In this document: positions 17,708 to 44,250 of the stretch, one piece after another
Layout of the letters: each line of letters opens with the position of its first letter
Position numbering within the stretch: position 1 is the first letter of the stretch
DNA from: Methanoregula sp.
GTDB lineage: Archaea; Halobacteriota; Methanomicrobia; Methanomicrobiales; Methanospirillaceae
Direction: 5' to 3'
Length of the DNA stretch: 51,121 bases
Assembly: GCA_030651815.1 (NCBI GenBank)
Contig: JAUSBW010000141.1
Location: forward strand, 1-51,121
The notes under the pieces: model-generated
Databases searched by the model: none
Told to the model about the DNA's origin: nothing
The model's input: only the letters and a program-made list of their open reading frames with translations
Translations under genes and position numbers: made by a program

Positions 17708-19034
17708 CGACGAAGCGATCATCACGATGCAGATCGAGGAGAAGATTAGTTCCATGGGGCATAAGGTGGTCGGTATGGCATCATCAGGAGAGGATGCGAT
17801 CGCAAAGGCACGGGCAACAAAACCCGATATCGTGCTGATGGATATCGTCATGCCGGGAAAAACCAATGGTATCGCTGCGGCAAAGGTGATCCATAAAGAA
17901 CTGGGTATACCCGTCATCTTCATCACCTCCTATGCGGACGACAAGATCATAGAGGAGGTAAAACAGGTCAACCCGTACGGGTATATCGTCAAGCCATTCA
18001 ACGAACTGGAGCTCAAAGCCGCCGTCCAACTGGCGCTCTTCCGGAAGAAGAATGAAGGGAGTGAACCGGGAAAGCGGGGACACCAGAAGGGGCGGGGTGT
18101 GGATAAAGCGGGGGATGAGAGCGATGACATGACTGAACCGGAAGCCTCCATAGCACCGGAGAGCAAGACCGTTCTGTTAAACAACTTTTACCAGGGCCTG
18201 ATCCTCGTCCTGTATGCACCCCCGCAGACCAATGAGGCGATCTACAAGACGTCCATCGAGTATGGACTGACAAACAGTCACCATATCTTCTTTGCCTATC
18301 ACCAGTCCCGTATACCCAAGTACTTCAATAAGGAGATCCGGGATGGCGTGATCATACCGCACCGGTTGAAATGGGGGGAACTTGACACGGTCATCCCCGC
18401 TATCGAGAAACACCGGGCAGCATCGCGGGAAACCGGGAAAGCCCGGAGCTGGCAGATCCTCATGGACTTCTCAGACACCGGGGATCTTGCGCAGATCTGT
18501 GCCATCAAAGGACATATTCTTAAAATGGCACCGGAAGACTCTCCGGTATCAGGAATTATCGCATTGAACATCGAGCGGTTGAGTCGTGAGCAGATCGAGT
18601 CGGTATCCGCCGGTATCACCAAGGTGATTGTCTTGACAGGAGACGAAACCTCGGTCTCCATTGCGAATCATTCCTATCCTCTTGAATCCCTCTCCATTGT
18701 ACCACAGGCGATGGTCGATGAGATCGTGAGGAAATCCTTAGAACCGCTTATCCTCTCGATCTTAAACAGACCCTTGTCCGGTTATGACATAGTCCACGAG
18801 ATCCACAGCCGGCACAACGTGCTCATCCCGCAGTCCCGGATCTACACGATCCTGTACGAACTCGAAGGGCAGGGGATCCTTGAGGTGAAGACATCCGGCA
18901 AGTCAAAGCTGTATGTTCCGACAGAGCCGGGGAAAGTATATATCCGGCAGAAAGTGAACGAGTTCAAATTTACATTCCAGCATATCTTTGGAGGTGTGGC
19001 ACATGAAGGTGAAAGTATCCGCAGCGCGAAATAA
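17685..19034 (+). CDS. Receiver-PadR fusion, candidate response regulator of the gas vesicle cluster
   Basis: This 449-residue protein has three parts. Residues 1-122 are a receiver (Asp53 in IVLMDIVMPGKTNG, lysine in YIVKPF). After a charged linker, about 165-345 forms an alpha/beta domain (GLILVLYAPPQTNEAIYKTSIEYGL written in part) that resembles a MEDS or KaiC-like fold without a P-loop; this is a weak assignment. Residues about 350-440 are a PadR-type winged helix (LSGYDIVHEIHSRHN, SRIYTILYELEGQGIL). It should bind DNA in response to phosphorylation. It overlaps the upstream kinase and the downstream CDC48-like gene, and gvpA follows, so control of gas vesicle genes is a reasonable inference. 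Confidence 0.82.
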   Translation: MARVLVVDDEAIITMQIEEKISSMGHKVVGMASSGEDAIAKARATKPDIVLMDIVMPGKTNGIAAAKVIHKELGIPVIFITSYADDKIIEEVKQVNPYGYIVKPFNELELKAAVQLALFRKKNEGSEPGKRGHQKGRGVDKAGDESDDMTEPEASIAPESKTVLLNNFYQGLILVLYAPPQTNEAIYKTSIEYGLTNSHHIFFAYHQSRIPKYFNKEIRDGVIIPHRLKWGELDTVIPAIEKHRAASRETGKARSWQILMDFSDTGDLAQICAIKGHILKMAPEDSPVSGIIALNIERLSREQIESVSAGITKVIVLTGDETSVSIANHSYPLESLSIVPQAMVDEIVRKSLEPLILSILNRPLSGYDIVHEIHSRHNVLIPQSRIYTILYELEGQGILEVKTSGKSKLYVPTEPGKVYIRQKVNEFKFTFQHIFGGVAHEGESIRSAK

Positions 19035-21102
19035 GGACATCGGACGGGGGATCGGCAGGATCGATCCAAAGACCATGGAAGAACTGGGCGCAGGTGTCGG
19101 AGACATCATTGAGATCTCCGGAAAACGGACAACCTGTGCAAAGGTGATGCCATCTTTTCCTGAAGACCGGGGGAAAGGGACGATCCAGATCGATGGTATT
19201 GTCAGGAAAAATGCATCCGTAGGCATCAATGACACCGTAGAGATCAAAGTAATCACCATCCCGCCGGTGAGTCATGTTGTGCTCCAGCCGCTCGACCGCT
19301 TCTTACAAAAAGAAGTTGAAAGCCGCCTGTTTGAAGGAATACCGGTAACAAAGGGCGACCAGATCCGCCTCTCAATGTTTGGCAAGAAGTTTGATTTTCT
19401 TATCTGTGAGGCTACACCGGAGATAGGGATTATCACCCGTACGACTTCCGTAAAAATCCAAGGTAGGAAAACCCAGGAAAAAGAGATAAAGAAGAGCCTC
19501 ATCTCCTACGAGGATATCGGCGGGTTGAAAGGACAGGTGGACAAGATCCGGGAAATGATCGAGCTCCCCTTAAAATATCCTGAACTTTTTGAACGCATGG
19601 GCATCGACCCGCCACGGGGTGTCCTGCTCTACGGTCCGCCGGGTACAGGTAAGACGCTCATCGCAAAAGCGGCGGCACAGGAGACCGATGCCTACCTGAT
19701 CTTCATATCAGGTCCCGAGATCGTAGGGAAATATTACGGGGAGTCGGAAGCCCGGTTACGGGAAATCTTTGCAGAAGCCCAGAAGAATGCTCCCGCCATT
19801 GTCTTCATCGATGAGATAGATGCGATTGCCCCCAAACGCGAGGATGTCGGTGGCGATAAACAGGTGGAACGGCGGATCGTTGCCCAGCTCCTCTCGATCA
19901 TGGACGGGTTGAAGGACCGGGGACAGGTGATCGTGATCGCAACAACCAACATCCCAAACTCGCTCGATCCTGCACTCCGGCGCCCCGGCCGGTTTGACCG
20001 GGAGATCATGATCCCCATCCCGGACAGAGACGGAAGGCGGGAGATCATCGAGATCCACACACGGGGCATGCCTCTTGCCGCCGATGTCGACCTCGATGAA
20101 CTGGCAAATATCACGCACGGGTATGTCGGTGCTGACCTTGCTGCACTCTCCCGCGAGAGCGCGATGCATGCCCTCCGGAAGATCTTACCGGTTATTGACT
20201 TTACCAAGCGTGAGGTTCCCTACGAGTTGATCGCCGATCTTACGGTCAAAAAAGAGGATTTTATGAATGCGTTCCGGGAGATCGAACCCTCCGCCCTGCG
20301 GGAGGTCTTTGTTGAGATCCCCGATGTCGGTTGGGACGATGTGGGGGGCCTGTCTGCAATCAAAGATGAAATCCGGGAGGCAGTTGAACTTCCGCTGAAA
20401 TGTGCGGGTCTTTACGCTTATGCAGCGGTCACTCCCCCAAAAGGGATACTGCTGCATGGTCCGCCGGGCACGGGAAAGACGCTCATCGCAAAGGCGATTG
20501 CCCACGAGACGCAGTCAAACTTCATCTCGATCAAAGGGCCGGAGCTGCTCTCGCGGTTCGTGGGTGAGTCCGAGCGTGGCATCCGTGAGATCTTCAAAAA
20601 AGCCCGGCAGGCAGTGCCCTGCATCATCTTCTTTGACGAGATTGATGCGATTGCCCCGACGCGGGGCGGCAGGAATGACAACGGTGTCACCGAACGGGTG
20701 ATTGCCCAGCTCTTAACCGAGATGGACGGTCTTGAGGAGTTAAAAGGTGTCACAGTCCTTGCAGCAAGCAACCGTATCGATATGATCGATCCTGCACTCC
20801 TCCGGGCAGGACGCATGGATCTCCTGATCGAGCTGCCAAAGCCAGACGAGACGGGACGTCTTGAGATCTTTAAGGTGCATACACGAAAACGACCTCTCCA
20901 AAAAGGGGTGAAACTTGAAAATTACATCAAAGAGACCGAAGGGTTCACCGGGGCAGAGATAGAGGCAGTCTGCAACCGCGCCGCCATTCTTGCCATCCGG
21001 GAGTTCTCAAAGACCGGACAGGATCAGACTGCATTTGTGATCCATTCGTCGCATTTCAGCCGTGCGATTGTGGATGTGCGTGCCAATACTTCCAAAATTT
21101 AA
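19003..21102 (+). CDS. CDC48/VAT-type double AAA ATPase
   Basis: This 699-residue protein has the CDC48 N-domain (about 1-160) and two AAA modules. D1 has GPPGTGKT starting at residue 211 and FIDEIDAIAPKR. D2 has GPPGTGKT at about 486 and FFDEIDAIAPTRGG, plus arginine-finger and sensor segments (RRPGRFDREI, LRAGRMDLLIELP). Such proteins form hexamers that unfold or remodel proteins. The length is slightly below typical archaeal VAT. I start at ATG 19003 because GGAGGTG lies just before it and MKVKVSAARNKDIGRG is a normal family N-terminus. It overlaps the receiver-PadR gene by 32 bases and is followed by the gvpA promoter. It may be a paralogue specialised for gas vesicles, but I cannot see whether another copy exists elsewhere. 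Confidence 0.92.
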   Translation: MKVKVSAARNKDIGRGIGRIDPKTMEELGAGVGDIIEISGKRTTCAKVMPSFPEDRGKGTIQIDGIVRKNASVGINDTVEIKVITIPPVSHVVLQPLDRFLQKEVESRLFEGIPVTKGDQIRLSMFGKKFDFLICEATPEIGIITRTTSVKIQGRKTQEKEIKKSLISYEDIGGLKGQVDKIREMIELPLKYPELFERMGIDPPRGVLLYGPPGTGKTLIAKAAAQETDAYLIFISGPEIVGKYYGESEARLREIFAEAQKNAPAIVFIDEIDAIAPKREDVGGDKQVERRIVAQLLSIMDGLKDRGQVIVIATTNIPNSLDPALRRPGRFDREIMIPIPDRDGRREIIEIHTRGMPLAADVDLDELANITHGYVGADLAALSRESAMHALRKILPVIDFTKREVPYELIADLTVKKEDFMNAFREIEPSALREVFVEIPDVGWDDVGGLSAIKDEIREAVELPLKCAGLYAYAAVTPPKGILLHGPPGTGKTLIAKAIAHETQSNFISIKGPELLSRFVGESERGIREIFKKARQAVPCIIFFDEIDAIAPTRGGRNDNGVTERVIAQLLTEMDGLEELKGVTVLAASNRIDMIDPALLRAGRMDLLIELPKPDETGRLEIFKVHTRKRPLQKGVKLENYIKETEGFTGAEIEAVCNRAAILAIREFSKTGQDQTAFVIHSSHFSRAIVDVRANTSKI

Positions 21103-21194: not shown

Positions 21195-21407
21195 ATGGTA
21201 GAAAAAATGAACTCATCTTCGAGCCTCGTCGAGGTAATTGACCGGATTCTGGACAAGGGCGTTGTTGTTGACGCATGGGTACGCGTCTCACTCGTCGGTA
21301 TTGAGTTACTCGCTATCGAAGCCCGTGTCGTGATCGCATCGGTTGAGACGTTCCTGAAGTACGCAGAAGCTGTCGGACTTTTGGAACACGCAGAAATTGC
21401 AGCATAA
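21195..21407 (+). CDS. gvpA: Gas vesicle structural protein GvpA
   Basis: This 70-residue protein is the main wall protein of gas vesicles. It has the hallmark sequence [20 protein letters not shown] followed by [28 protein letters not shown] (written here only in part as family motifs): amphipathic helix, beta strands, helix. The length is normal for GvpA. A strong ribosome site AGGAGG lies 8 bases upstream. The gene has its own promoter and a terminator hairpin 40 bases after the stop, so it is probably transcribed alone and at high level. It heads the gvp cluster extending to 33763. Confidence 0.97.
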
Positions 21408-23521: not shown

Positions 23522-24445
23522 ATGAATCATGAAACAGTCATCAATCCACTACCCCAGAAGGGGTTTGTGGAATCGGAGTACGTCAGAAACATCACCGAGC
23601 GGGGAGTGCGGTACATTAAAAAAGGGTTTCCCATTCATCTTTGCGGACCGACGGGGTGTGGAAAGACAACACTTGCCATGCATATTGCGTTCCTTCTCGG
23701 AAGGCCGGTCACCCTCATCAACGGCGATGAGGAGTCCACCACCACCTCCTTTGTCGGGGGGGAAGATGGCTATCACAAGACAAAAGTAGTGGACCGGTAC
23801 GTCTCCCGTGTCTACAAATATGATGAAACAATGAAAAAGATTTGGGTGGACGAACGGCTTACCACGGCATGTATGAATGGCTACACCCTGATTTATAACG
23901 AGTTCACCCGTTCGCGTCCGGAGGCGAATAACATATTCTTATCCGTGCTTGAAGAGAGGATGCTCGAACTCCCGACTGCCGCACATGGCGGCAACTACAT
24001 CAAGGTCCATCCTGATTTTTCTGCGATATTCACGAGCAACCCTGAGGAATATGCCGGGGTATTCAGGTCCCAGGATGCGCTCCTGGACCGGATGATTACC
24101 ATTTCAATGGGCATGTATGACGAACAGACTGAAATTGAGATAACCCAGGCAAAATCCGGTGTTTCCCCTGCGATCGCAGAAAAAATTGTCAGGCTGGTCA
24201 GGAAGCTCAGGGCATCGGATATATGCGAGGTAAACCCGACGCTCCGGTCGTGCGTGTCTATCGCACGCGCCTTTGGGGATGATGGTGACGATGCGTGGTT
24301 TGTCCGGGTATGTACAGATGTCCTTACACCCAAGATCGGAAAGGGAAAACAGGGTGATACTGACCCCGAAGTTGTTCTCCATGACCTGCTGAGCGAGACC
24401 AGATCCCGCCCGTCCATGAAAAAAGGATCCGTACCAGCGGGGTAG
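23522..24445 (+). CDS. gvpN: Gas vesicle AAA ATPase GvpN
   Basis: This 307-residue MoxR-like AAA protein is required in known systems for vesicle enlargement. The Walker A motif GPTGCGKTT is at 42-50. The Walker B site reads LIYNEFTRSR (about 123-132), with Asn before Glu where Asp is common. Sensor-1 IFTSNPEEYAG is near 169-179, followed by an arginine-rich lid region. Length and motifs are typical of GvpN. GAGGAG lies upstream of the ATG. It is the first gene of a long co-directional series running to gvpL. Confidence 0.94.
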   Translation: MNHETVINPLPQKGFVESEYVRNITERGVRYIKKGFPIHLCGPTGCGKTTLAMHIAFLLGRPVTLINGDEESTTTSFVGGEDGYHKTKVVDRYVSRVYKYDETMKKIWVDERLTTACMNGYTLIYNEFTRSRPEANNIFLSVLEERMLELPTAAHGGNYIKVHPDFSAIFTSNPEEYAGVFRSQDALLDRMITISMGMYDEQTEIEITQAKSGVSPAIAEKIVRLVRKLRASDICEVNPTLRSCVSIARAFGDDGDDAWFVRVCTDVLTPKIGKGKQGDTDPEVVLHDLLSETRSRPSMKKGSVPAG

Positions 24446-24651: not shown

Positions 24652-24712
24652 GACAAGAATGCTTATCAAAAAAACGAGCCTGGATGTGGCAAGAACGCAG
24701 GGTGTCCCATGC

Positions 24713-25084
24713 ATGATAACCCTGACCGAGAAGCAGATAAAAAAAGATCTTCTCGGTACCCATGAGAGTTTTTTCCTCACCGCACATGAAGTAAAAAAAA
24801 TCGTGAGGGATGAAGACAAGCGGAAAAAAAAACAGGCACGTGCACTAGCAAAAGGCAGGATGAATTTCCTGCGGCAGAAGGAAAGGATGAAAATGGTCCA
24901 GGCTGCACGATTGGGGAAGTTGATCCCGAAGAAGGGCGCTACCTTCCGGGTGCTCGTTCCATCCCAGCCAGTAGAAACTGAGGGCATCCATCAGCTGGTT
25001 GAATTTGGTAAAGTAAAAAAGGTGACGGCTCCACGCTGGGACCGTCAGAAGAGGAATTACCATGCAATCGATGTCAGCTACTAA
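24713..25084 (+). CDS. Basic protein of unknown function in the gvp cluster
   Basis: I do not recognise this 123-residue protein. It is very basic, with a long helix (HEVKKIVRDEDKRKKKQAR) and a C-terminal part that may be beta-rich (ATFRVLVPSQPVETEG). Its end overlaps gvpF by 23 bases. The ATG at 24713 has GGGTG about 8 bases upstream. An in-frame ATG at 24659 would add IKKTSLD, a variant of the KTSTG repeat encoded just before, and cannot be excluded. Location between gvpN and gvpF suggests a gas vesicle accessory role. Confidence 0.65.
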   Translation: MITLTEKQIKKDLLGTHESFFLTAHEVKKIVRDEDKRKKKQARALAKGRMNFLRQKERMKMVQAARLGKLIPKKGATFRVLVPSQPVETEGIHQLVEFGKVKKVTAPRWDRQKRNYHAIDVSY

Positions 25085-26416: not shown

Positions 26417-26914
26417 ATGGAGAAAAAAAAGGTAAAAAACGACGCACCCATTCTGGATTTCGGCTTGAAGTTCGGGGGGATACTGACCGAACTTGGCAAC
26501 TTTACGCAAGACATCACAAAGATGGTTGAGGAAGGAAAAACCGAGATGTCAAGGACCGGCGAAATCTCTTTTGATAAGTCTCAAAAACGAAAAGGGATGT
26601 ATGGGATCTCTGTCAGGATGGGCGGGGATGGTATGCCCCGTGTCGACACCTTCGGCAGGAGACCGGAAGCTGATACCCGCGAACCGATCGTTGATATTTT
26701 CGATGAAGCCGACCGGTTGCAGGTGATTGTTGAGCTCCCCGGAGTTGAAGAGAAGGACATCACTCTCGAAATAAAAGAGACCACCCTCATCATTACGGCG
26801 GGAAAAGGTGAACGGAAATACAAAAAGGAGATCGATCTCGGGGTTCCGGTCAAAGGTGAGCCAAAGAAACAGTACAAGAACGGGATCCTCGAAATCAATC
26901 TCGTAAAGGTGTGA
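26417..26914 (+). CDS. gvpH: Gas vesicle protein GvpH, Hsp20 family
   Basis: This 165-residue protein has a variable N-terminal region and a C-terminal alpha-crystallin (Hsp20) domain from about residue 88. Motifs include EPIVDIFDEADRLQVIVELP, GVEEKDITLEI and KNGILEINLVKV, the canonical end of the domain. Small heat-shock proteins prevent aggregation, and GvpH in gas vesicle clusters is thought to do this for GvpA-like proteins. AGGAGG lies upstream of the ATG. A second Hsp20 gene is at 31845 and a broken copy of that at 42550. Confidence 0.88.
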   Translation: MEKKKVKNDAPILDFGLKFGGILTELGNFTQDITKMVEEGKTEMSRTGEISFDKSQKRKGMYGISVRMGGDGMPRVDTFGRRPEADTREPIVDIFDEADRLQVIVELPGVEEKDITLEIKETTLIITAGKGERKYKKEIDLGVPVKGEPKKQYKNGILEINLVKV

Positions 26915-26994: not shown

Positions 26995-27375
26995 ATGGCA
27001 ATACAGACGGCAATGCGGGATGATTCGGCAAGTTCCCTTGTGGATGTAATCGAACGGGTGCTGGACAAAGGGGTCGTCATCAACGCCGACATCTGCGTCT
27101 CTGTCGCAGGCGTTGAACTTCTCGGCATCAAGATACGTGCAGCGGTAGCTTCGTTTGAGACTGCCGCGAAGTACGGGCTCGAGTTCCCTTCAGGTACGAA
27201 CATGAATACGGCGGTCTGGGGCCGGGTAAAAGAAGACCAGGAAAAATGCCCCCAGTGCGGGAAAACGGTCCCCATCCATGTGCTGCTCAACGAGAGTTGT
27301 CCGTGGTGCGGCTGGTCGAGCGCGAAAGCCTTAATGAACGCCCCGTCACTAAAACGGATTTCCCATCACAGGTGA
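26995..27375 (+). CDS. gvpJ: GvpJ-type minor gas vesicle protein with C-terminal zinc ribbon
   Basis: Residues 13-68 are a GvpA-family core (SLVDVIERVLDKGVVINAD, SVAGVELLGIKIRA, ETAAKYGLEFPSGT), and the last segment is typical of GvpJ. Residues 85-105 form a likely zinc ribbon, CPQCGK then CPWCGW, absent from ordinary GvpJ. GvpJ nucleates vesicle growth in known systems. The ATG at 26995 is in a tightly packed series with gvpM, six bases later. The zinc-ribbon fusion is seen directly; what it binds is unknown. Confidence 0.88.
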   Translation: MAIQTAMRDDSASSLVDVIERVLDKGVVINADICVSVAGVELLGIKIRAAVASFETAAKYGLEFPSGTNMNTAVWGRVKEDQEKCPQCGKTVPIHVLLNESCPWCGWSSAKALMNAPSLKRISHHR

Positions 27376-27381
27376 CAGGGA

Positions 27382-28029
27382 ATGGAAGCGACCCGTGAAC
27401 GGAGAACAACTCTTGTCGACCTGCTTGACCGGGTACTGGACAAAGGAGCAGTCATTGATGCAGATGTGATCATCACCGTTTCCGGTGTCCCCCTCATCGG
27501 GCTCAAACTCCGGGCAATGCTTGCGAGCATCGAGACGATGATCGAGTACGGGATGTGGGCGGACTGGGACAAAGCCATCCGGGCTGCTGCAAACGAAGAA
27601 GAGAAGAAAAAGCTCGTACAGGAGATCGCCCTGCTGCAAGGCGAGACGCCCCGCTTCCAGTGCGCTGCTTCCTACTGGCAGTCTGAAGGTGCCTGCCCGG
27701 CGTGGACCTACGGCACCCTCACCCTCACCGATGCTGCGATCCGAATCCACCGGAGAGAACCGTTATCATGCCTTGTTACCGTCCGCTTCGAAGAACTTGC
27801 CGGGTATTCGCTCGAATACGGTACGGTATCGGCCTCTGCCGAACCATCCGGATATCTCCATCTGGTCCTGACGAATGGCTCGGTCATTTCGCTCCACCCG
27901 AATGACATAAAGCAGGTGATTATAAGAATCGGTGAAGAGATGAACCGGAGAAAACTCCGGTGGGCACCGGTCGAGTGCCATGCCCGGATGCCGGAGAATT
28001 ACCGGCTGTGTGTAGTAAAAGAGACGTGA
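27382..28029 (+). CDS. gvpM: GvpM-type minor gas vesicle protein with long C-terminal domain
   Basis: The first 60 residues have the GvpA-family core in GvpM form (TLVDLLDRVLDKGAVIDAD, ITVSGVPLIGLKLRAMLASI, ETMIEYG). The protein then continues for about 150 residues, while GvpM usually ends near 85. The extension has strand-rich sequence (AIRIHRREPLSCLVTVRFEE, then GYLHLVLTNGSVISLHPND) ending in a helix, which resembles a GRAM/PH-like fold; this is a weak inference. The gene follows gvpJ by six bases and precedes the ArsA-type ATPase. Confidence 0.85.
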   Translation: MEATRERRTTLVDLLDRVLDKGAVIDADVIITVSGVPLIGLKLRAMLASIETMIEYGMWADWDKAIRAAANEEEKKKLVQEIALLQGETPRFQCAASYWQSEGACPAWTYGTLTLTDAAIRIHRREPLSCLVTVRFEELAGYSLEYGTVSASAEPSGYLHLVLTNGSVISLHPNDIKQVIIRIGEEMNRRKLRWAPVECHARMPENYRLCVVKET

Positions 28030-28068: not shown

Positions 28069-29166
28069 ATGAACTCACAGGTACAACCCAAAAAAAGAGC
28101 GGCGGAAAATACCCGGACTCCTCGTGTGAGTGTCACAAAGGTATCAAAGGCATCTGCGAAAACATTTGCAATTACCACACCGGATTTACCTGCTGCTACT
28201 GCAACACCGTCAACAAAGATCATCCTCTTTGGAGGGAAGGGCGGCGTTGGAAAGACGTCAGCTGCTGCCGCTACGGCTCTTGCGCTCGCCGATGCGGGAG
28301 AGCGTGTACTGATCATCTCCAGTGATCCGGCACCCTCTCTCTCGGATATCTTTGAATGTCCCATCGGGGGAACTGTCACCCATGTCGCAAAGGGGCTCTC
28401 GGCAATCGAGATCAATGCCGAAACCGTTGTTGAAAAGTACAAGAAGATCTACGGCAGTGCCATCATTGACGCCGTCACGGTCATTCCCATCAATGAAGAT
28501 ATGCTTGACGAGATCCCAAACACGGTCATACCGGGATTCGATGAACTCTTCGCACTAGAAGAGATGCTCACCTTCTTACCTGAAGGATATGATTACATCA
28601 TCTGGGATACTGCCCCCACTGGGCATACCCTGCGCCTCCTAACCCTTCCGGACAGCATCGTCGGCTACACGACTGGCATGCAGAAGATCCAGAAGCGGCT
28701 GGCTGGTGTGAGCGGCGCCATCAGGGTCTTGTTTGACAAGGAATCATCCAAAGACACACTGGATCTCGCGTTGTTGCGGTTGCAGGAGATGGCACAGCAC
28801 GCCCTCGCGGTGCTCACCGATCACGAGCGGACAGAGTTCGTCCTCATCATCATCCCTGAGGCACTGGCACTGTACCAGACAGAACGCATGAAGCAGGTGC
28901 TTGACAGGCTCGATATTCTCACCGCAAGAATTATCGTAAATGGAATCGTTCCAAAAAATACCTGCCCGTTCTGCATCTCACGCCGGACCGTGCAGGAGCG
29001 GTACCTTAAAAAGATCCACAAACGCTACGATGACCAGTTGACCGTCATCGAGGTGCCGCTCTTTTCCGGTGAGTTAAAAGGGCGGGAGCTGTTGATGGAG
29101 TATGCCCGGTACCTCGGTTGGGGAGCAGGTGCCGGGCTAAAAGAGGATACTGGGGTAGTGCCATGA
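28069..29166 (+). CDS. ArsA/Get3-family ATPase in the gas vesicle cluster
   Basis: This 365-residue P-loop ATPase has a deviant Walker A motif GKGGVGKTS (56-64), SSDPAPSLSD after it, a switch region WDTAPTGHTLRLL and NTCPFCISRR near the C-terminus, a CxxC pair as in archaeal Get3 proteins. About 48 low-complexity residues precede the ATPase domain. Family members shuttle tail-anchored membrane proteins (Get3) or power arsenite export. No arsenite genes are nearby, so a chaperone role for hydrophobic gas vesicle proteins is the better inference. Its C-terminal 85 residues recur as a fragment at 30464-30709. Confidence 0.88.
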   Translation: MNSQVQPKKRAAENTRTPRVSVTKVSKASAKTFAITTPDLPAATATPSTKIILFGGKGGVGKTSAAAATALALADAGERVLIISSDPAPSLSDIFECPIGGTVTHVAKGLSAIEINAETVVEKYKKIYGSAIIDAVTVIPINEDMLDEIPNTVIPGFDELFALEEMLTFLPEGYDYIIWDTAPTGHTLRLLTLPDSIVGYTTGMQKIQKRLAGVSGAIRVLFDKESSKDTLDLALLRLQEMAQHALAVLTDHERTEFVLIIIPEALALYQTERMKQVLDRLDILTARIIVNGIVPKNTCPFCISRRTVQERYLKKIHKRYDDQLTVIEVPLFSGELKGRELLMEYARYLGWGAGAGLKEDTGVVP

Positions 29167-29206
29167 AAAACATGCAGGATCCCTATCATAATGGAGAAGT
29201 AAAATG
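29163..29206 (+). pseudogene. Remnant start of a copy of the 30706 gene
   Basis: Directly after the ATPase, ATG 29163 opens a 14-codon frame reading MKNMQDPYHNGEVK. The intact gene at 30706 begins MKNVHDPFRET in the same position relative to the ATPase C-terminus. This is best explained as a leftover of a duplication. It could also be a tiny leader, since its stop overlaps the next start. Confidence 0.5.
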
Positions 29207-29518
29207 ACAATTCAGAATGTAAAATGCGCCTTTTGCAAAGGAAGCGGGACAGATCCACTTAGCGGGTCTGTCTGCCAGACATGCAAAGGAAAAGGTACCG
29301 TAACGATTCATGGACCAATAAGCAGGTGTGTTTATTGCCGCGGAACCGGAAAACACCCTGACAAGCAACGCACACTCACATGCCCGGTTTGCTGGGGCAA
29401 AGGCGTTATCACGGTTTCGGAAAAAGCCAAAACCTGCCCCACATGTAAGGGAACGGGGAGAGCAAAAGAGAGCAGGCTGCCCTGCCTCACATGTAAGGGA
29501 GCGGGAAAGACACATTAA
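29204..29518 (+). CDS. DnaJ-type zinc-finger protein 1
   Basis: This 104-residue protein is made almost entirely of CxxCxGxG-like motifs: CAFCKGSG, CQTCKGKG, CVYCRGTG, CPVCWGKG, CPTCKGTG and CLTCKGAG. This matches the zinc-binding cysteine-rich region of DnaJ without J-domain or substrate domain. It probably binds two or three zinc ions and acts in protein folding or disulfide chemistry. GGAG lies upstream of the ATG. A close paralogue is at 29834-30190. Confidence 0.85.
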   Translation: MTIQNVKCAFCKGSGTDPLSGSVCQTCKGKGTVTIHGPISRCVYCRGTGKHPDKQRTLTCPVCWGKGVITVSEKAKTCPTCKGTGRAKESRLPCLTCKGAGKTH

Positions 29519-29533
29519 GGTTAAGGTGACCCA

Positions 29534-29698
29534 ATGACTGTAAAAGGAATAAACGATATTAAAACGCGGAAGAATATCGTAACCTTAAAAGGAGTAGTCT
29601 GTCCCGCATGCCATGATACAGGGATCAATCCAACGACACGGCTCAGGTGCAGTGTCTGCGACGGCACAAGGTATGTCCGGCCCTGGGGCGGATGTTGA
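29534..29698 (+). CDS. 54-residue zinc-finger-like small protein 1
   Basis: The short frame begins MTVKGINDIKTRKNIVTLKG and continues with CPACHDTGINPTTRLRC and SVCDGT: two CxxC pairs that can bind zinc. A paralogue at 30277-30459 keeps the same core and cysteines, which supports coding. It lies between the two DnaJ-type zinc-finger genes. The function is unknown. The ORF is real by conservation of the pair, though short. Confidence 0.7.
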   Translation: MTVKGINDIKTRKNIVTLKGVVCPACHDTGINPTTRLRCSVCDGTRYVRPWGGC

Positions 29699-29699
29699 A

Positions 29700-29837
29700 A
29701 TGAAGACTGCAACAACCCGGTCAGGCAAGAACCGTTACATTAAGATGCTCTTGCAAAAAATCGGCAGCGGTGACCACACGGGCGTAGATCCGGTAGATGT
29801 AATTGATGGCTGCTTAAAAGAAGAGGGATTGCAATGA
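29700..29837 (+). CDS. 45-residue small protein, unrecognised
   Basis: ATG 29700 opens a 45-codon frame beginning MKTATTRSGKNRYIKMLLQK and ending DVIDGCLKEEGLQ. Its stop overlaps the ATG of the next gene (ATGA at 29834), typical of translational coupling, and the start follows the previous stop by one base. The N-terminus is basic and the C-terminus acidic and helical. I do not recognise it. Confidence 0.6.
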   Translation: MKTATTRSGKNRYIKMLLQKIGSGDHTGVDPVDVIDGCLKEEGLQ

Positions 29838-30190
29838 ACCGTACCATCAAATGTGCTTTTTGCAATGGTAAAGGATTAGACCCCTTCAAAATCCTGTCTC
29901 CCCTTTCCTCCTGCCAGACGTGCGTGGGAAAGGGCACCGTGGAAGTCCACGGTAAAACTGTCTCCTGTCCGTACTGCACAGGGGACGGAAAGGACCCGCA
30001 CCACCGGCTCACGTGTCCGGTCTGTTGGGGAAAAGGGGAAGTTACCGTCGCAACGGCAACCGAAACCTGTCCCAAATGCAAAGGATCCGGAAATATCCAT
30101 GGGAGCACCCTGCCATGCATCAAATGTGCAGGGAAGGGTTTGATCTCAACGGAAAATTCGCCACTGGGGCGCCAGAAGAAGAAGGATTAG
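29834..30190 (+). CDS. DnaJ-type zinc-finger protein 2
   Basis: This 118-residue paralogue of the 29204 protein carries CAFCNGKG, CQTCVGKG, CPYCTGDG, CPVCWGKG, CPKCKGSG and CIKCAGKG. The number and order of motifs match paralogue 1, so the two arose by duplication. No J-domain is present. It may work with the ArsA-type ATPase or Hsp20 proteins as a chaperone module for vesicle proteins; this is inference from context. Confidence 0.85.
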   Translation: MNRTIKCAFCNGKGLDPFKILSPLSSCQTCVGKGTVEVHGKTVSCPYCTGDGKDPHHRLTCPVCWGKGEVTVATATETCPKCKGSGNIHGSTLPCIKCAGKGLISTENSPLGRQKKKD

Positions 30191-30276
30191 CTTGCGAAAG
30201 GCATCGGACGCCTCCAATAGATTATAGCAAATACGGAGCAGACTCTGGCAAAGATCAAAGATTGAAAGGTGAAAAA

Positions 30277-30459
30277 ATGAAATTAAAGGGAGTAAACAAC
30301 ATTAAAACGCGGAAGAATATCGTAACCTTACAAGGGGTACTCTGTCCCGCATGCCATAGTACAGGGATTAATCCAACGACACGGCTCATGTGCAGTGTCT
30401 GCGATGGCACCCTGTATACGTCCGGCTCCGACCGAACGGTTCATAAAGATACTGGATGA
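30277..30459 (+). CDS. 60-residue zinc-finger-like small protein 2
   Basis: It starts MKLKGVNNIKTRKNIVTLQG and has the two CxxC pairs CPACHSTG and CSVCDGT, like the 29534 protein. The C-terminus (TSGSDRTVHKDTG) differs from the paralogue and runs to the boundary of the ATPase fragment that follows, so the end may have been altered by the rearrangement. AAAGGTG lies before the ATG. Confidence 0.65.
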   Translation: MKLKGVNNIKTRKNIVTLQGVLCPACHSTGINPTTRLMCSVCDGTLYTSGSDRTVHKDTG

Positions 30460-30463
30460 GCCG

Positions 30464-30709
30464 GGTATCCACATGATCGCGAATGGAATTATCCCGAAAA
30501 ATACCTGCCCGTTCTGCACCTCACGCCGGAATGTGCAGGAGCGGTATCTTGCAAAGATCCGCCAGCGCTACGATGACCAGTTGACGGTCATTGAAGTGCC
30601 GCTTTTTCCCGGTGAGTTAAAAGGACAAGAGCAGCTGATGCAGTATGCCCGGTACCTCGGATGGGGAGCAGGTGCCGGGCTAAAAGAGGATACCGGGGCA
30701 GAGCCATGA
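30464..30709 (+). pseudogene. Duplicated C-terminal fragment of the ArsA-type ATPase
   Basis: The reading frame contains IPKNTCPFCTSRRNVQERYL, DDQLTVIEVPLFPGELKG and GWGAGAGLKEDTGAEP, matching the last 85 or so residues of the ATPase at 28069 with few changes. The P-loop part is absent. It sits downstream of the zinc-finger genes and immediately before the 30706 gene, so the ATPase end and the following gene start were duplicated together around the zinc-finger cassette. Confidence 0.8.
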
Positions 30710-31005
30710 AAAACGTACATGATCCCTTCCGTGAAACAAGCATCCCGCCGCATGAAAACGATACCCGCAGTATTCCCGTGAAAACAAAAGCGCGAAAAGG
30801 AAAGGGAAAGAAAAAAGGAAGATCCATTCTTGAGACGGTCAAAAACGTAAAGATCGAGGTTGTAGAGCCCTTAACGATCAGTCCTGTCCGCCCCCTTTCC
30901 ATCAACGTGCCCGGTTTCTCCACGGAAAAAACCGAGATCGGCGTGGCGGAGATCTACGGCAACAAGGCACTCTATCTCCGGCTTTCCTTAAGGAGTGATA
31001 ACTAA
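30706..31005 (+). CDS. 99-residue gvp-cluster protein of unknown function
   Basis: The ATG at 30706 overlaps the end of the ATPase fragment, the same arrangement as the remnant at 29163. The N-terminal half is basic (KTKARKGKGKKKGRS) and the C-terminal half beta-like (PLSINVPGF, EIYGNKALYLRLSL). It does not match a gas vesicle family I can name, although basic small proteins such as GvpI occur in other clusters. It ends directly before the 31006 gene, suggesting co-translation. Confidence 0.7.
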   Translation: MKNVHDPFRETSIPPHENDTRSIPVKTKARKGKGKKKGRSILETVKNVKIEVVEPLTISPVRPLSINVPGFSTEKTEIGVAEIYGNKALYLRLSLRSDN

Positions 31006-31848
31006 ATGACCCCGCAGCAGGGCACTAAAACGAGCCCGATCATGACGGTATTAGCTGGTACCCTGCAGGAGATCCTCAATACACTCTACCGGAAGTACCC
31101 GGATGAAGTCCAATCAGCCTGCACAGGCAAAGGTGCACACTCATCCGGCAATCCTGCCGATCTTGAGGATCTCATCCTGCGATATTCCGGCGATGAAGAG
31201 ATCAACGAGATCCTCGCTCGCAGGTTTAAGGAGTGCGGGTTGATCAGCGATTCGATTCCGGAATCTGCCTCACCGCTGGCAAGGCAGCGCTATGATCTCT
31301 ATAGCGATCTCGATGAAGGGAGCAGAACCATCCTCGGCATCCTGTATGAGCAGCGATACGCCACCCTGGACGAACTGAGCGCCTGCTCCGGGCTTACCCA
31401 TTACGCAGTGCTGCACCGGTTGCGGGAGATTATCATCCCGATGTCTGTCAAGCGCCGGGGCAGACCGATCGCTGTCTTCTGTGAGTCCGCAACAGACCTT
31501 GCCACCGGCAGGCAGATCGTGTTCTCGTGGTGGTTGAATGACGATCTCCTGCACAAGAAAAAGGAAGTTGAGGTAGTTGAGACGAGCGACTCTCTAGTAA
31601 TCACGCTTGACCGTACCGGATGTGACCTGCCAAAGACCCCGAATGTATCAGCCAGCTGTACGCATGGCATACTGGAGATCAAGGTAGAGAAAAACCCTGA
31701 TGAACCATGCAGGTCCGGCAAAGGTAAGAGGAACGTTGGCTTACCGGCTTTTAAGCCAACCGGCGATGATCTGGTAACCGGGCAAACATACGGACATGAA
31801 AGCGACGACAGCCGTTTTCATAATAAAAATACCGGGGGAAGAACATGA
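31006..31848 (+). CDS. Winged-helix plus Hsp20-like protein in the gvp cluster
   Basis: This 280-residue protein has a helical N-terminus, a likely winged helix at about 104-160 (TILGILYEQRYATLDELS, LTHYAVLHRLREI, SVKRRGRPIAVF) and at about 185-229 strands resembling the end of an alpha-crystallin domain (EVVETSDSLVITLD, then THGILEIKVEK). The tail is low-complexity. The fold assignments are inference from pattern. Its stop overlaps the start of the Hsp20 gene by 4 bases. It may be a regulator or adaptor of vesicle assembly. Confidence 0.65.
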   Translation: MTPQQGTKTSPIMTVLAGTLQEILNTLYRKYPDEVQSACTGKGAHSSGNPADLEDLILRYSGDEEINEILARRFKECGLISDSIPESASPLARQRYDLYSDLDEGSRTILGILYEQRYATLDELSACSGLTHYAVLHRLREIIIPMSVKRRGRPIAVFCESATDLATGRQIVFSWWLNDDLLHKKKEVEVVETSDSLVITLDRTGCDLPKTPNVSASCTHGILEIKVEKNPDEPCRSGKGKRNVGLPAFKPTGDDLVTGQTYGHESDDSRFHNKNTGGRT

Positions 31849-32363
31849 AGAAGAATGACCAAAAGACGAATGATACTGATGATGACGATAGTGTTGTAGA
31901 GAGTGTAGTGAATGATATGCTGCCGGGCATGGGGAATCTGGTTAAGAACCTGCGCAAACGATCGCCGGAGCTGGACCGGAAAATCAAAGAGAAAGAGCAG
32001 GAGATCAAAAAGAGGTTAGAAGAGGGATACTCTCCGGAACCAACGGTCACCCACAGTGTAAAGATCCGTTCGCTCGTCCCATCCGGTCCAAAGAAGGCAG
32101 AAGAACGCCCGGAGAACAAGACGATCGAACCGATAACAGACATATTCAATGAGGGTGACCTGCTGCGTATCGTGATCGAGATGCCGGGCGTCACTATGGA
32201 AAAGATACATATCGCAGTCAAAGGCCATTCACTCGAGGTCTCGGCAAAAGAGAGCGGGAAGCGGTACAAAAAAGAGATCACCTTACCCTGGCACGGAAAG
32301 CTTGCAAAAGAACGGTACCAGAACGGGATTTTAGAGCTGGTCCTGGAGCAAAATGACCATTGA
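31845..32363 (+). CDS. Second Hsp20-family gas vesicle protein (GvpH-like)
   Basis: This 172-residue protein has an acidic N-terminus with helical, charged middle (LDRKIKEKEQEIKKRLEEG) and an Hsp20-like domain from about 95: EPITDIFNEGDLLRIVIEMP, GVTMEKIHIAVKG, and YQNGILELVLEQNDH. It is a paralogue of gvpH at 26417 but clearly diverged. The stop overlaps the gvpK start by 11 bases. A 5'-truncated copy with most residues conserved is at 42550-42841. Confidence 0.85.
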   Translation: MKKNDQKTNDTDDDDSVVESVVNDMLPGMGNLVKNLRKRSPELDRKIKEKEQEIKKRLEEGYSPEPTVTHSVKIRSLVPSGPKKAEERPENKTIEPITDIFNEGDLLRIVIEMPGVTMEKIHIAVKGHSLEVSAKESGKRYKKEITLPWHGKLAKERYQNGILELVLEQNDH

Positions 32364-32718
32364 GATCGATGAGAACAACCTAAAAGAGGGCGTACTAGGG
32401 CTTGTTATCGCAGTCGTTGAGATCCTTGAAGAGGCACTCAAGATCCAGGCATTGAAGCGGATGGAGTCAGGCGTGTTATCGGAAGCAGAGATCGAACGCC
32501 TCGGTAAATCCCTTATGGACCTTCACGTGGCGATCGAGCAGATAAAAACCGACCAGGGACTGACAAAAACGGTCGGGGAGATCCGTGCCGAACTGGATGA
32601 CATCGTCGATGATGTGGTTGAGAAGATGATAAACCCGGTTGATTTCCAAAACTCAATTGCGCAGGAGACGACCGGGAACCGTGGAGAATTATGGAAACGG
32701 GAGAGCGAGATATGTTAA
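32353..32718 (+). CDS. gvpK: Gas vesicle protein GvpK, copy 1
   Basis: This 121-residue protein matches GvpK: GVLGLVIAVVEILEEALKIQ, ALKRMESG, then SEAEIERLGKSLMDLHVAIEQ. GvpK is a helical minor protein required for vesicle formation in several systems. The ATG lies inside the end of the Hsp20 gene. The last part overlaps a small ORF preceding gvpL. The second copy at 42831-43196 differs at only a few residues, mainly near the C-terminus. Confidence 0.92.
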   Translation: MTIEIDENNLKEGVLGLVIAVVEILEEALKIQALKRMESGVLSEAEIERLGKSLMDLHVAIEQIKTDQGLTKTVGEIRAELDDIVDDVVEKMINPVDFQNSIAQETTGNRGELWKRESEIC

Positions 32719-32987
32719 GGGGAGTCTCACAGAAGGAGCCGCATAAGAACCCGTTGTTAGTGGAAATTCGCTCAGGAATTTCCCGTAATCTTATCCCCGG
32801 TTGTTGGCCCCGCTGCCAATCAGCTATTCAGAATTATGTCAGCAGGAAAGGCAGATGTATCTTTAAAGAGGATCCGAAACAGGAACCCGTATTTGTAGTG
32901 CTGCACGGTGATGCACCTGCTACGGTAAGAGAGTCTGGAGGAAAACAATTGTCTTTCCCTGCACCCGGACGGGAAGTGATGATATGA
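32712..32987 (+). CDS. 91-residue ORF between gvpK and gvpL, copy 1
   Basis: This frame begins at ATG 32712 inside the end of gvpK and stops with ATGA overlapping the gvpL start. GGGAG lies 8 bases before the ATG; an in-frame ATG at 32691 is possible. The matching frame in the second gvp block (43190-43465) has exactly the same length and the same overlaps, but the protein sequence is much more diverged than GvpK or GvpL on either side. It may be a fast-evolving coding gene or a coupled leader. I do not recognise any domain. Confidence 0.5.
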   Translation: MLRGVSQKEPHKNPLLVEIRSGISRNLIPGCWPRCQSAIQNYVSRKGRCIFKEDPKQEPVFVVLHGDAPATVRESGGKQLSFPAPGREVMI

Positions 32988-33763
32988 CGGGAACAAAAAA
33001 AGACGGGTTGTACCTGTATGCCCTCGTAGAGCACAATGGGGAGATCCCTACGGGAATCACCGGTGTTGAAGGGGAGCCGCTCTTTTCCCTCCCGTACCGT
33101 AACTTGTCTGCTATTGTCCATGCCTGCCCGCTCACCCCCTATGCGAGTGATGACCAGACAGTAGTGACCGGATGGGTACTGAGTCACGAGCAGGTGCTGG
33201 AACGGCTTATCGGGTTGGGGATGAACACCATCCCATTTACGTTTGACACCATCATCAAACCGGAAAAAGAGCGGGATGCAACAGCTGTGCTCACCGGGTG
33301 GTTGTCCAACGAATATGAGATTTTTTTGCAGAAATTCGAAAAGATCCGAATGAAAAAGGAGTATGGAGTCCAGATATTTGTACACCGTCAGAAGATTCAG
33401 GATACGATCACTGCAACAAACGATTTCATAAAGCGACTTGAAGCACAGGCAAAGACCAGCGGTCCGGGAAAAAAGTACATGATTCAGCAACAGCTGGAAA
33501 AGGAAGTAAAAGTTGCCATGGATGCTGAGATTGCCGGCATCATTTCAGAGATTACGAGAAAGATACAGAAATATTGCGATGAGATCCGTATGGGTAAGCT
33601 GAAGAAAGGGCAGGTGCCGGAACGGGATATGATCCTGAACTGCTCGTGTCTTGTAACAGAAGAGAATTACGAAAAGCTTGGCGCTGTATTAGAAGAGATC
33701 GAGAGGGAAGGCGACTTGTCGGTGAGATTCACCGGGCCGTGGGCGGTGTACTCTTTTGTATGA
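32984..33763 (+). CDS. gvpL: Gas vesicle protein GvpL, copy 1
   Basis: This 259-residue GvpF/GvpL-family protein has LYLYALVEHNGEIPTGITG near the N-terminus, NTIPFTFDTI, a long helical middle and the C-terminal signature FTGPWAVYSFV. GvpL interacts with other minor Gvp proteins in known systems. The ATG overlaps the stop of the preceding small ORF (ATGA). Copy 2 at 43462-44241 has the same length and is highly similar. It ends the main gvp series. Confidence 0.92.
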   Translation: MTGTKKDGLYLYALVEHNGEIPTGITGVEGEPLFSLPYRNLSAIVHACPLTPYASDDQTVVTGWVLSHEQVLERLIGLGMNTIPFTFDTIIKPEKERDATAVLTGWLSNEYEIFLQKFEKIRMKKEYGVQIFVHRQKIQDTITATNDFIKRLEAQAKTSGPGKKYMIQQQLEKEVKVAMDAEIAGIISEITRKIQKYCDEIRMGKLKKGQVPERDMILNCSCLVTEENYEKLGAVLEEIEREGDLSVRFTGPWAVYSFV

Positions 33764-33852
33764 GATTACGATTCATCGTCATACCTGACGGTTACTGAGA
33801 AAGGAGGCTGAGGTATGTGATTACGGTGAACCTGAAAAAAGGCGTATTCTAC

Positions 33853-42549: not shown

Positions 42550-42841
42550 ACTCGTCCCGTCCGGTCCAAAAAAGGCAGAAGAGCGACCGGAGAATAAAAC
42601 GATTGAACCTGTCACGGACATCTTCAATGAGGGTGACCTGCTGCGGATCGTGATCGAGATGCCGGGCGTTACCATGGAAAAGATACATATCGCAGTCAAA
42701 GGCCGCTCACTCGAAGTCTCTGCAAAAGAGGGGGGGAAGCGGTACAAAAAAGAGATCCCCCTTCCATGGCACGGAAAGGTTGCAAAAGAACGGTACCAGA
42801 ATGGGATCCTGGAGCTGGTCCTGGAGCAGAATGACCATTGA
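42550..42841 (+). pseudogene. 5'-truncated copy of the Hsp20 (gvpH-like) gene
   Basis: From LVPSGPKKAEERPENKTIEP onward this frame matches the 31845 protein nearly residue for residue, through GVTMEKIHIAVKG to YQNGILELVLEQNDH. The first 73 or so codons are missing; the DNA match stops abruptly near 42550. An internal ATG at 42659 would give only the last 60 residues, too short for a complete alpha-crystallin domain. It may still serve to couple translation of gvpK copy 2, which overlaps it by 11 bases. Confidence 0.8.
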
Positions 42842-43196
42842 GATCGATGAGAACAACTTAAAGGAAGGCGTACTCGGTCTTGTTATCGCAGTCGTTGAGA
42901 TCCTTGAAGAGGCACTCAAGATCCAGGCATTGAAGCGGATGGACTCGGGCTTGTTATCGGACGAGGAGATCGAACGCCTCGGTAAATCACTCATGGACCT
43001 TCACGTGGCGATAGAGCAGATTAAGACCGACCAGGGACTGACAAAAACTGTCGGGGAGATCCGTGCCGAACTGGATGATATTGTCGATGATGTGGTCGAG
43101 AAGATGGTGAACCCGGTCGACACCCGCGATCTATTGGGACAGGAAAGCGCCACGAACCCGGGTGCGTTATGGAAACGGGAGAGCGAGATATGTTAA
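42831..43196 (+). CDS. gvpK: Gas vesicle protein GvpK, copy 2
   Basis: This 121-residue protein is nearly identical to copy 1 at 32353 (TIEIDENNLKEGVLGL, IERLGKSLMDLHVAIEQ). Differences are few and concentrated near the end (NPVDTRDLLGQESATN against NPVDFQNSIAQETTGN). The frame is intact, so it is probably functional. It forms a second gvpK-ORF-gvpL set and suggests a relatively recent block duplication. Confidence 0.92.
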   Translation: MTIEIDENNLKEGVLGLVIAVVEILEEALKIQALKRMDSGLLSDEEIERLGKSLMDLHVAIEQIKTDQGLTKTVGEIRAELDDIVDDVVEKMVNPVDTRDLLGQESATNPGALWKRESEIC

Positions 43197-43465
43197 CGAG
43201 AGTTTCTCCGGGGGTGCAGCACAGGATCCCGTTGTTATTTGAAATGTGCTCAGGAATTCAAAGAATTCCTGCTCCCGATTGTCAGACCCGGTTCCGTTCA
43301 GCGATGAAGAATTGTGTCAGCTGGAACTGCAGATGTATCACCCATGAGGATTCGACACGGGAATTCAGATCCATAGTACCGCTCGGTAATACCCCGGCCC
43401 GGGGAAGAGTGCCGGGAGAGATACTATCATCTTTCCCTGCACACAGGAGAGATGTGATGGTATGA
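43190..43465 (+). CDS. 91-residue ORF between gvpK and gvpL, copy 2
   Basis: It has the same length and the same start and stop overlaps as the 32712 ORF, with no insertions or deletions between copies. Only scattered residues agree (SG near the start third, FPA near the end). It has several cysteines (CRCITHED) unlike the partner. Either relaxed or diversifying selection acts on it, or the overlaps alone are conserved for coupling. Confidence 0.5.
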   Translation: MLTRVSPGVQHRIPLLFEMCSGIQRIPAPDCQTRFRSAMKNCVSWNCRCITHEDSTREFRSIVPLGNTPARGRVPGEILSSFPAHRRDVMV

Positions 43466-44241
43466 CGGGGACAAAAAATGACGGGTTGTACCTGTATGCT
43501 CTTGTGGAGCACAGCGGGGAGATCCCAACGGGAATCACCGGAGTTGACGGACAGCAGGTATTTTCCCTCCCGTACCGGGACCTGTCTGCCATTGTCCATG
43601 CCTGCCCGCTCACACCCTATGCGAGCGAGGATCAGGCAGTTGTGACCGGGTGGGTGCTGAGTCATGAACAGGTACTGGAACGGCTCATCGGGGCGGGGAT
43701 GAACACCATCCCCTTAACGTTCGACACGATCATCAAACCGGAAAAAGAACGGGATGCGAAGAATGAGCTAACCGGGTGGTTGTCCAAAGAGTACGAAAAT
43801 TTTTTACAGAAATTCGAAAAGATCCGGGGTAAAAAGGAATACGGCATCCAGGTATTTACCAACCGGCAGAATATCCGGGATACGATCTCTGCAACAAACG
43901 ATTTTATAAAGCGACTCGAAGGGCAGGCAAAGACCAGCGCTCCTGGGAAAAAATACATGATTCAGCAAAAGCTGGAAAAGGAAGTAAAAGTTGCCATGGA
44001 TAGAGAGATTGCCGGCATCATTTCAGAGACCCAAAGAAAGATCCAGGAGTATTGCGATGAGATTTCCCTGGGAAAATTAAAGAAAGGGCAGGTGCCGGAC
44101 CGGGATATGATCCTGAACTGCTCGTGCCTGGTTTCCGATGAGAACTACGAAAAGCTTGGCGCTGTGTTAGAAGAGATCGAACGGGGGGGTGACCTGTCAG
44201 TACGATTCACCGGACCGTGGGCGGCATACTCGTTTGTATGA
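43462..44241 (+). CDS. gvpL: Gas vesicle protein GvpL, copy 2
   Basis: This 259-residue GvpF/GvpL-family protein is highly similar to copy 1, with LYLYALVEHSGEIPTGITG, NTIPLTFDTI and the end FTGPWAAYSFV. The frame is intact and the ATG overlaps the stop of the small ORF. The similarity to block 1 ends a few bases after the stop. A possible terminator follows. Confidence 0.92.
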   Translation: MTGTKNDGLYLYALVEHSGEIPTGITGVDGQQVFSLPYRDLSAIVHACPLTPYASEDQAVVTGWVLSHEQVLERLIGAGMNTIPLTFDTIIKPEKERDAKNELTGWLSKEYENFLQKFEKIRGKKEYGIQVFTNRQNIRDTISATNDFIKRLEGQAKTSAPGKKYMIQQKLEKEVKVAMDREIAGIISETQRKIQEYCDEISLGKLKKGQVPDRDMILNCSCLVSDENYEKLGAVLEEIERGGDLSVRFTGPWAAYSFV

Positions 44242-44250
44242 GAAGACGGG

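Follow-up and report, generated by a model that had tools for sequence, protein, structure and literature searches.

Gas vesicles serve imaging, and the solubility of their very hydrophobic proteins before assembly is an open question. GvpA, GvpJ, and GvpM are prone to aggregate, while GvpF and GvpH are chaperone-like (PMC9501494, PMC6107691, PMC11445434); the Hsp20-like GvpH of Halobacterium prevents the aggregation of GvpM (PMC9501494). Castillo and Saier (2010) described ArsA ATPases accompanied by hsp20 genes in bacterial gas-vesicle (gvp) clusters (clusters 4 and 6), proposed that ArsA energises a step of gas-vesicle biogenesis, and stated that the gvp-linked ArsA proteins are two-domain (PMC2963123). 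A stretch of 51,121 nucleotides from the archaeon Methanoregula sp. (contig JAUSBW010000141.1, positions 1 to 51,121; hereafter the window) harbors a gvp cluster in which a single-domain ATPase of the ArsA/Get3 type lies between gvpM and gvpK, accompanied by zinc proteins, Hsp20-like proteins, and a CDC48 paralogue. The ATPase belongs to the Get3 side of its superfamily and marks one type of gvp cluster across several archaeal families, and a chaperone role for the hydrophobic GvpA, GvpJ, and GvpM is likely.

Two further groups of described proteins are close to parts of this locus. Get3d is a prokaryotic relative of Get3 that has a fused alpha-crystallin domain and lacks the CxxC motif (PMC10248533). 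BSD2 and ZnJ2 are DnaJ-zinc proteins of chloroplasts that are devoid of a J domain and have been proposed to be assembly chaperones (PMC5818400).

The ATPase gene (28069-29166, on the forward strand, as are the genes and the direct repeat given below for the cluster, and the CDC48 gene) encodes 365 residues matching PF02374 (E 9.8e-73) and TIGR00345 (GET3/ArsA/TRC40; E 2.3e-70) and occupies an equivalent place in the gvp clusters of other genomes. Against TIGR04291 (ArsA), the single domain scores 140.6 bits and stays below the curated cut-off of 650. The window ATPase and the other single-domain gvp proteins share the deviant Walker A P-loop GKGGVGK(T/S). Switch II of the window protein is DTAPTGHT, and its switch I, SDPAPSLSD, retains the aspartate while the histidine is replaced by proline. 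The protein also harbors CPFC, which appears as CxFC in all seven single-domain gvp proteins compared and is a predicted zinc site. The insert region is 63 residues long in most single-domain gvp proteins and 59 in that of G224, as compared to 66-68 in the Get3 proteins of M. thermautotrophicus and M. jannaschii and 43-45 in arsenite ArsA; its hydrophobicity in the gvp-linked ATPase resembles that of Get3. The core of an AF2 model of the ATPase is of good quality, and its insert region is poor. Among solved structures, M. thermautotrophicus TRC40 and M. jannaschii Get3 have the most similar folds, and the two-domain algal ArsA1 is a further high-scoring match when sequences are compared. No alpha-crystallin domain was found in the window ATPase and CxxC is present; thus, the protein falls outside Get3d.

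A maximum-likelihood tree built from 53 domains places the gvp-linked proteins (the single-domain forms and both halves of the double ones) in one branch with a support of 97/93; E. coli ArsA groups separately, with the two-domain ars proteins of archaea. The Get3 side is split from the arsenite ArsA side with a support of 99/95 in this midpoint-rooted tree, and a constraint placing the 17 gvp rows in a single clade is not rejected (p-AU 0.22). Sequence, tree, and fold therefore agree on the Get3-like character that an earlier note, made from the sequence alone, had given the protein; its placement of an ArsA-type ATPase between gvpM and gvpK is likewise borne out by the Pfam and NCBIfam matches. 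The annotated neighbors of the window arsA are gvp, hsp20, and zinc genes, among which the neighbors typical of ars operons (arsB/acr3, arsD, arsR) do not appear. An identity as an arsenite pump was considered and dropped on the basis of the sub-cut-off TIGR04291 score, the tree position, and the motifs and insert.

The linkage of this ATPase to gas vesicles was surveyed in genomes that all come from one phylum, with bacteria sampled via five plasmids; several of the surveyed gvp clusters end at contig ends. GvpN is present in three of the 199 genomes of the order (the window genome G000, G166, and G001), and single-domain ArsA occurs in exactly these three, about 4 kb from gvpN. Three further genomes of the order have a two-domain ArsA only, which is of the arsenite type in the tree. 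The chance figure for the coincidence of ArsA and GvpN in the order is 8e-7, a value that overstates independence because two of the three gvp genomes are congeneric. The window genome is 99.9% complete, and no other full-length ArsA/Get3 was found in it, the remaining matches spanning the P-loop region only. In a second, distant family (51 genomes), the same ArsA type is found in G336, G290, and G317, with 49-51% identity to the window ArsA over the full alignment. Seven genomes from three families keep the order gvpJ-gvpM-arsA-small gene-hsp20-gvpK-gvpL, either fully or partially, and G224 from a fourth family encodes a single-domain gvp-linked ArsA; GvpN was not found in any of the five genomes of its class.

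Two-domain ArsA proteins adjoin gvp genes as well, in G317, G343, G328, G249, and a Nostoc plasmid. A degraded arsA remnant of 156 residues lies in a gvp cluster of G343 (locus L206, 7086-7556), and the same genome carries a two-domain gvp-linked ArsA (L205); one form has possibly been replaced by the other. Comparison of G000 with G166 gives a dN/dS of 0.20 for arsA, indicating purifying selection, as in gvpM and gvpO. ArsA is characteristic of one gvp-cluster type, not of all gvp clusters. The association speaks to shared use, not to mechanism.

The second ATPase of the locus, a product of 704 residues encoded upstream of gvpA (18988-21102), contains a CDC48 N domain (PF02359) and two PF00004 stretches and scores 933 bits against the TIGR01243 cut-off of 803, as expected of a CDC48-family AAA ATPase. 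CDC48 genes adjoin the gvp clusters of G166, G001, G336, G317, and G249, all of them ArsA-bearing genomes (with gvpN and arsA of G249 located on separate contigs), and a related double-AAA protein follows arsA in Nostoc. No CDC48-type gene was found in 35 archaeal gvp loci that lack ArsA. The window protein is 70-71% identical to the gvp copies of another family, as compared to 54% and 52% to the other full-length CDC48 proteins of its own genome, and on these identities it is classed as a gvp-dedicated CDC48 paralogue. On two alphaproteobacterial plasmids, the gvp cluster includes a CDC48 or AAA gene and no ArsA; therefore, the pairing of ArsA and CDC48 is not strict. In one published gas-vesicle study, Cdc48d was a co-purifying contaminant.

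Immediately after arsA, four genes encode two kinds of zinc proteins, each in two copies. The first six-motif CxxCxGxG protein (29204-29518, 104 residues; PF00684, DnaJ_CXXCXGXG, E 6.7e-13) is followed by a small two-CxxC protein (29534-29698, 54 residues), and the second (29834-30190, 118 residues; PF00684, E 2.5e-12) by a small protein of 60 residues (30277-30459) that is 75% identical to its counterpart. Both small proteins have weak DnaJ-Zn matches only. These are the two CxxCxGxG proteins and the two small double-CxxC proteins that the earlier note had listed, and the Hsp20 proteins that it placed nearby are also present (26417-26914 and 31845-32363). A 45-residue open frame without a family match (29700-29837) lies between the first small zinc protein and the second six-motif gene, with whose start it shares four bases.

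Orthologues of the six-motif protein and of its small partner are encoded as a pair between gvpN and the next gene in the gvp clusters of G336 and G290, where the small gene again follows the six-motif gene; the second window copy is 57-58% identical to the six-motif proteins of these two genomes. When 392 genomes of the phylum were searched with a profile, full-length six-motif matches (160-197 bits) were restricted to G000 (two copies), G290, and G336, each of them inside a gvp cluster, and the next-best score, 43 bits, belongs to proteins of DnaJ length and other small frames. The six-motif protein is thus gvp-restricted within the phylum survey. Because other genomes conserve the zinc proteins, their open frames are not fortuitous. 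The orthologous pair beside gvpN in G336 and G290 also led us to abandon the notion of a mere insertion with no connection to gvp.

No J domain was found in the six-motif proteins, which have six motifs where DnaJ has four and are thus not DnaJ proteins. As proteins with PF00684 and no J domain, they belong with BSD2 and ZnJ, albeit with six motifs in place of four, and their chaperone activity is putative. A regulatory function is a rather doubtful but serious competitor to this assignment: the pair could, for example, act in the manner of anti-TRAP, as a binder of RNA or of a regulatory protein of the cluster. Anti-TRAP (RtpA, PF15777) fits the six-motif proteins about as well as DnaJ-Zn does. 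However, its matches, which span about 30 residues, reach 45.1 and 49.9 bits against an NCBIfam cut-off of 65, and the clearest solved-structure match of the six-motif protein is the zinc domain of E. coli DnaJ. An AF2 model of the zinc protein built from four sequences had a pLDDT of 35 and was not used.

The zinc genes are bounded by the two copies of a 255-bp direct repeat (28930-29184 and 30473-30727; 86.7% identical), the left of which comprises the 3′ end of arsA and the first codons of the next gene. In the window, these two gene parts are duplicated around the zinc genes, leaving a truncated second arsA (30431-30706) that retains only the C-terminal third (PF02374 positions 223-303, E 1.4e-10). 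In G166, the insertion between the repeats is absent and arsA passes straight into the following gene. The arsA fragment shares several residues with G166 that its intact neighbor does not have, and its divergence (dS 0.37) is like the values between species (0.32-0.41 for G000 and G166). From these sequence features we infer that recombination with a related gvp cluster probably produced the zinc-gene insertion. About 9 kb downstream of the original (32073-33765), a second copy of the hsp20 C-terminus, gvpK, and gvpL (42551-44243; 83.6% identical) is a partial duplicate and a second scar of the same kind.

The position of the zinc genes in an insertion with an arsA fragment, together with their absence from the cluster of the same-genus G166, would suit a scenario in which arsA and the zinc genes are sporadic passengers (e.g., of arsenic or metal resistance) with no role in gas vesicles. 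Such a scenario is nonetheless very improbable, and for arsA it is already largely refuted: ArsA co-occurs with gvp genes and keeps its synteny across families, it sits away from arsenite ArsA in the tree, and it has the long insert that arsenite ArsA lacks. As for the zinc pair, its only other full-length occurrences lie within gvp clusters of another family. The earlier note had conceded that sporadic neighborhood would undo its proposal; the survey did not find this outcome: ArsA follows one gvp-cluster type closely, and the six-motif zinc protein is gvp-restricted in the phylum. The zinc pair is absent from two ArsA-type clusters. Its picture of one dedicated module is kept for the ATPase, which tracks gvp, and not for the zinc pair, which is separable and accessory, or optional, in ArsA-type clusters. 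Beyond what it had described are the truncated arsA, the conserved gene at 30706-31005, and the CDC48 gene.

The most hydrophobic proteins of the cluster are the proposed clients, all of the GvpA family, with GvpK close behind: the major shell protein GvpA (21195-21407; PF00741 E 3.1e-16; KD maximum 1.87), GvpJ (26995-27375; E 5.6e-17; 1.90), and a GvpM-like protein (27382-28029; E 8.4e-16; 1.85). In the favored reading, to which we give an even chance, the ATPase serves gas-vesicle assembly as a dedicated factor of the Get3/TRC40 type that shields and releases GvpA, GvpJ, and GvpM. It would form a homodimer closed by the CxxC zinc site, and the dimer would shield the hydrophobic part of the three proteins against aggregation. 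Hydrolysis of ATP would then release the clients to an assembly complex of GvpF, GvpL, and GvpK, in place of the delivery of a tail anchor to the membrane. The gvp-specific CDC48 probably acts on mis-assembled subunits by remodeling or extracting them. Like GvpH, the two Hsp20-like proteins may hold subunits, and the six-motif protein, together with its small partner, may be an optional holdase of the BSD2/ZnJ kind. Taken together as a dedicated proteostasis set (the Get3-type ATPase for soluble delivery, the gvp-only CDC48, the two Hsp20-like proteins, and the gvp-only six-motif holdase with its partner), these proteins might form a relay that replaces or augments chaperoning by GvpF, GvpG, and GvpH, a broader proposal that is distinctly more tentative.

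Several observations weigh against an assembly role of this kind. Apart from one MinD-sized match, no ArsA was found near gvpN in the 35 other archaeal gvp loci (L131-L165), which were scanned about 9.5 kb to each side of gvpN where the contig allowed; therefore, ArsA is not required for gas vesicles generally. The gvp branch of the tree includes long-branched proteins from G216 and G255 that have no gvp neighbors. The ArsA-type clusters and genomes of G166 and G001 gave no match to the zinc pair, and since this pair lies inside a recombined insertion in the window, the ATPase and the zinc proteins are not an inseparable module. Finally, a C-terminal hydrophobic anchor was found neither in the Gvp proteins nor in any other protein of the cluster; thus, classical tail-anchor delivery is improbable here, and a use of Get3 at this locus would lie outside membrane targeting.

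The last point also favors a different function, in which the ATPase is dedicated to gas vesicles yet has the assembly complex (GvpK/GvpL or GvpN) as its target, for instance in the role of a MinD/ParA-like switch for the positioning or timing of vesicle nucleation. Neither the tails of the shell proteins nor anchors fit Get3, the ATPase is of the same P-loop class as MinD and ParA, its neighbors gvpK and gvpL encode the assembly complex, and Castillo and Saier proposed only the energising of a biogenic step (PMC2963123). On the other hand, the protein keeps CxxC and an insert of Get3 length, groups on the Get3 branch, and has Get3 as its closest fold, and its other companions (Hsp20, CDC48, and DnaJ-zinc) are chaperone types. 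A switch of this kind is considered unlikely yet a fair rival, and shielding and release of GvpA, GvpJ, and GvpM is preferred.

The gvp cluster itself is co-directional and extends from gvpA (21195) to gvpL (33763), with gene identities assigned using Pfam and NCBIfam. Its order is gvpA, a GvpC-like repeat protein, gvpN, an unnamed gene, gvpF, gvpG, gvpO, hsp20, gvpJ, gvpM, arsA, the zinc genes, two unnamed genes, hsp20, gvpK, and gvpL. GvpN (23522-24445) scores 332.6 bits against a TIGR02640 cut-off of 266.8, gvpK (32353-32718) matches PF05121 (E 3e-19), and gvpL (32984-33763) matches NF045778 below its cut-off (E 1.9e-39). The Hsp20-like proteins upstream and downstream of arsA match NF041800, likewise below its cut-off (E 3.1e-36 and 1e-22, respectively). 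The unnamed gene between gvpN and gvpF (24659-25084) encodes a Lys/Arg-rich protein of 141 residues that is without a family and is kept in five ArsA-type clusters. The two unnamed genes after the zinc set are conserved, gvp-linked, and without a family match: the small one (30706-31005), which lies outside that set and gave no Pfam or NCBIfam match, aligns across six gvp clusters, and the other (31006-31848) aligns across five, its product having a helix-turn-helix-like part and Hsp20-like C-terminal strands, both weak matches. The C-terminal zinc ribbon of GvpJ is common to 20 archaeal gvp loci, with or without ArsA. Supply of zinc to this ribbon by the zinc pair was considered and dropped, as most of these loci are without the pair.

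The link of ArsA and Hsp20 to gvp clusters is itself not new, having been published in 2010 for bacterial two-domain proteins (PMC2963123). As far as the tools used show, the additions are the single-domain archaeal Get3-type form, its conserved location between gvpM and gvpK, and two gvp-only proteins, the six-motif zinc protein and the CDC48 paralogue. A limited literature search found no earlier report that treats gas vesicles and Get3 together, an absence that is not proof. The single-domain form is an exception to what was stated in 2010, namely that ArsA proteins linked to gvp are two-domain, and the gvp-only CDC48 and the zinc proteins are new candidate assembly factors. If the proposed role is true, Get3 would serve a soluble protein shell in place of a membrane, and archaeal Get3-like proteins would gain a testable set of clients.

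Compared to the ArsA proteins of Castillo and Saier (PMC2963123), the window ATPase is likewise an ArsA-family protein in a gvp cluster, often with hsp20; those are bacterial and two-domain (about 640 residues), whereas it is archaeal, single-domain, and located between gvpM and gvpK, in a cluster that, unlike those described, includes a gvp-only zinc protein and a gvp-only CDC48. E. coli ArsA (1f48) belongs to the same superfamily and has the same nucleotide motifs, but it has two domains, an insert region about 20 residues shorter with no CxxC there, and a different branch in the tree. The archaeal Get3/TRC40 proteins of M. thermautotrophicus (3zq6) and M. jannaschii (3ug6) share with the window ATPase the single domain, P-loop, switch II, CxxC, a similar insert length, and the fold. 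It is about 36% identical to them and has its own branch, switch I is DPAP or DPAS in most gvp-linked members in contrast to their DPAH, and, unlike them, it is tied to gvp clusters, with no tail-anchored client seen in the cluster. In Get3d, the alpha-crystallin domain is fused to the ATPase, whereas the Hsp20-like proteins of the window are separate neighbors of an ATPase with CxxC. The six-motif proteins resemble BSD2 and ZnJ2 in carrying CxxCxGxG motifs without a J domain; BSD2 and ZnJ2 have four motifs, while the window protein has six, is archaeal and gvp-restricted, and is paired with a small two-CxxC protein. As with GvpH, small Hsp20-like proteins are encoded in the gvp cluster, and to these the ArsA-type clusters add a Get3-type ATPase and a CDC48 paralogue, whereas the examined haloarchaeal loci are without both.

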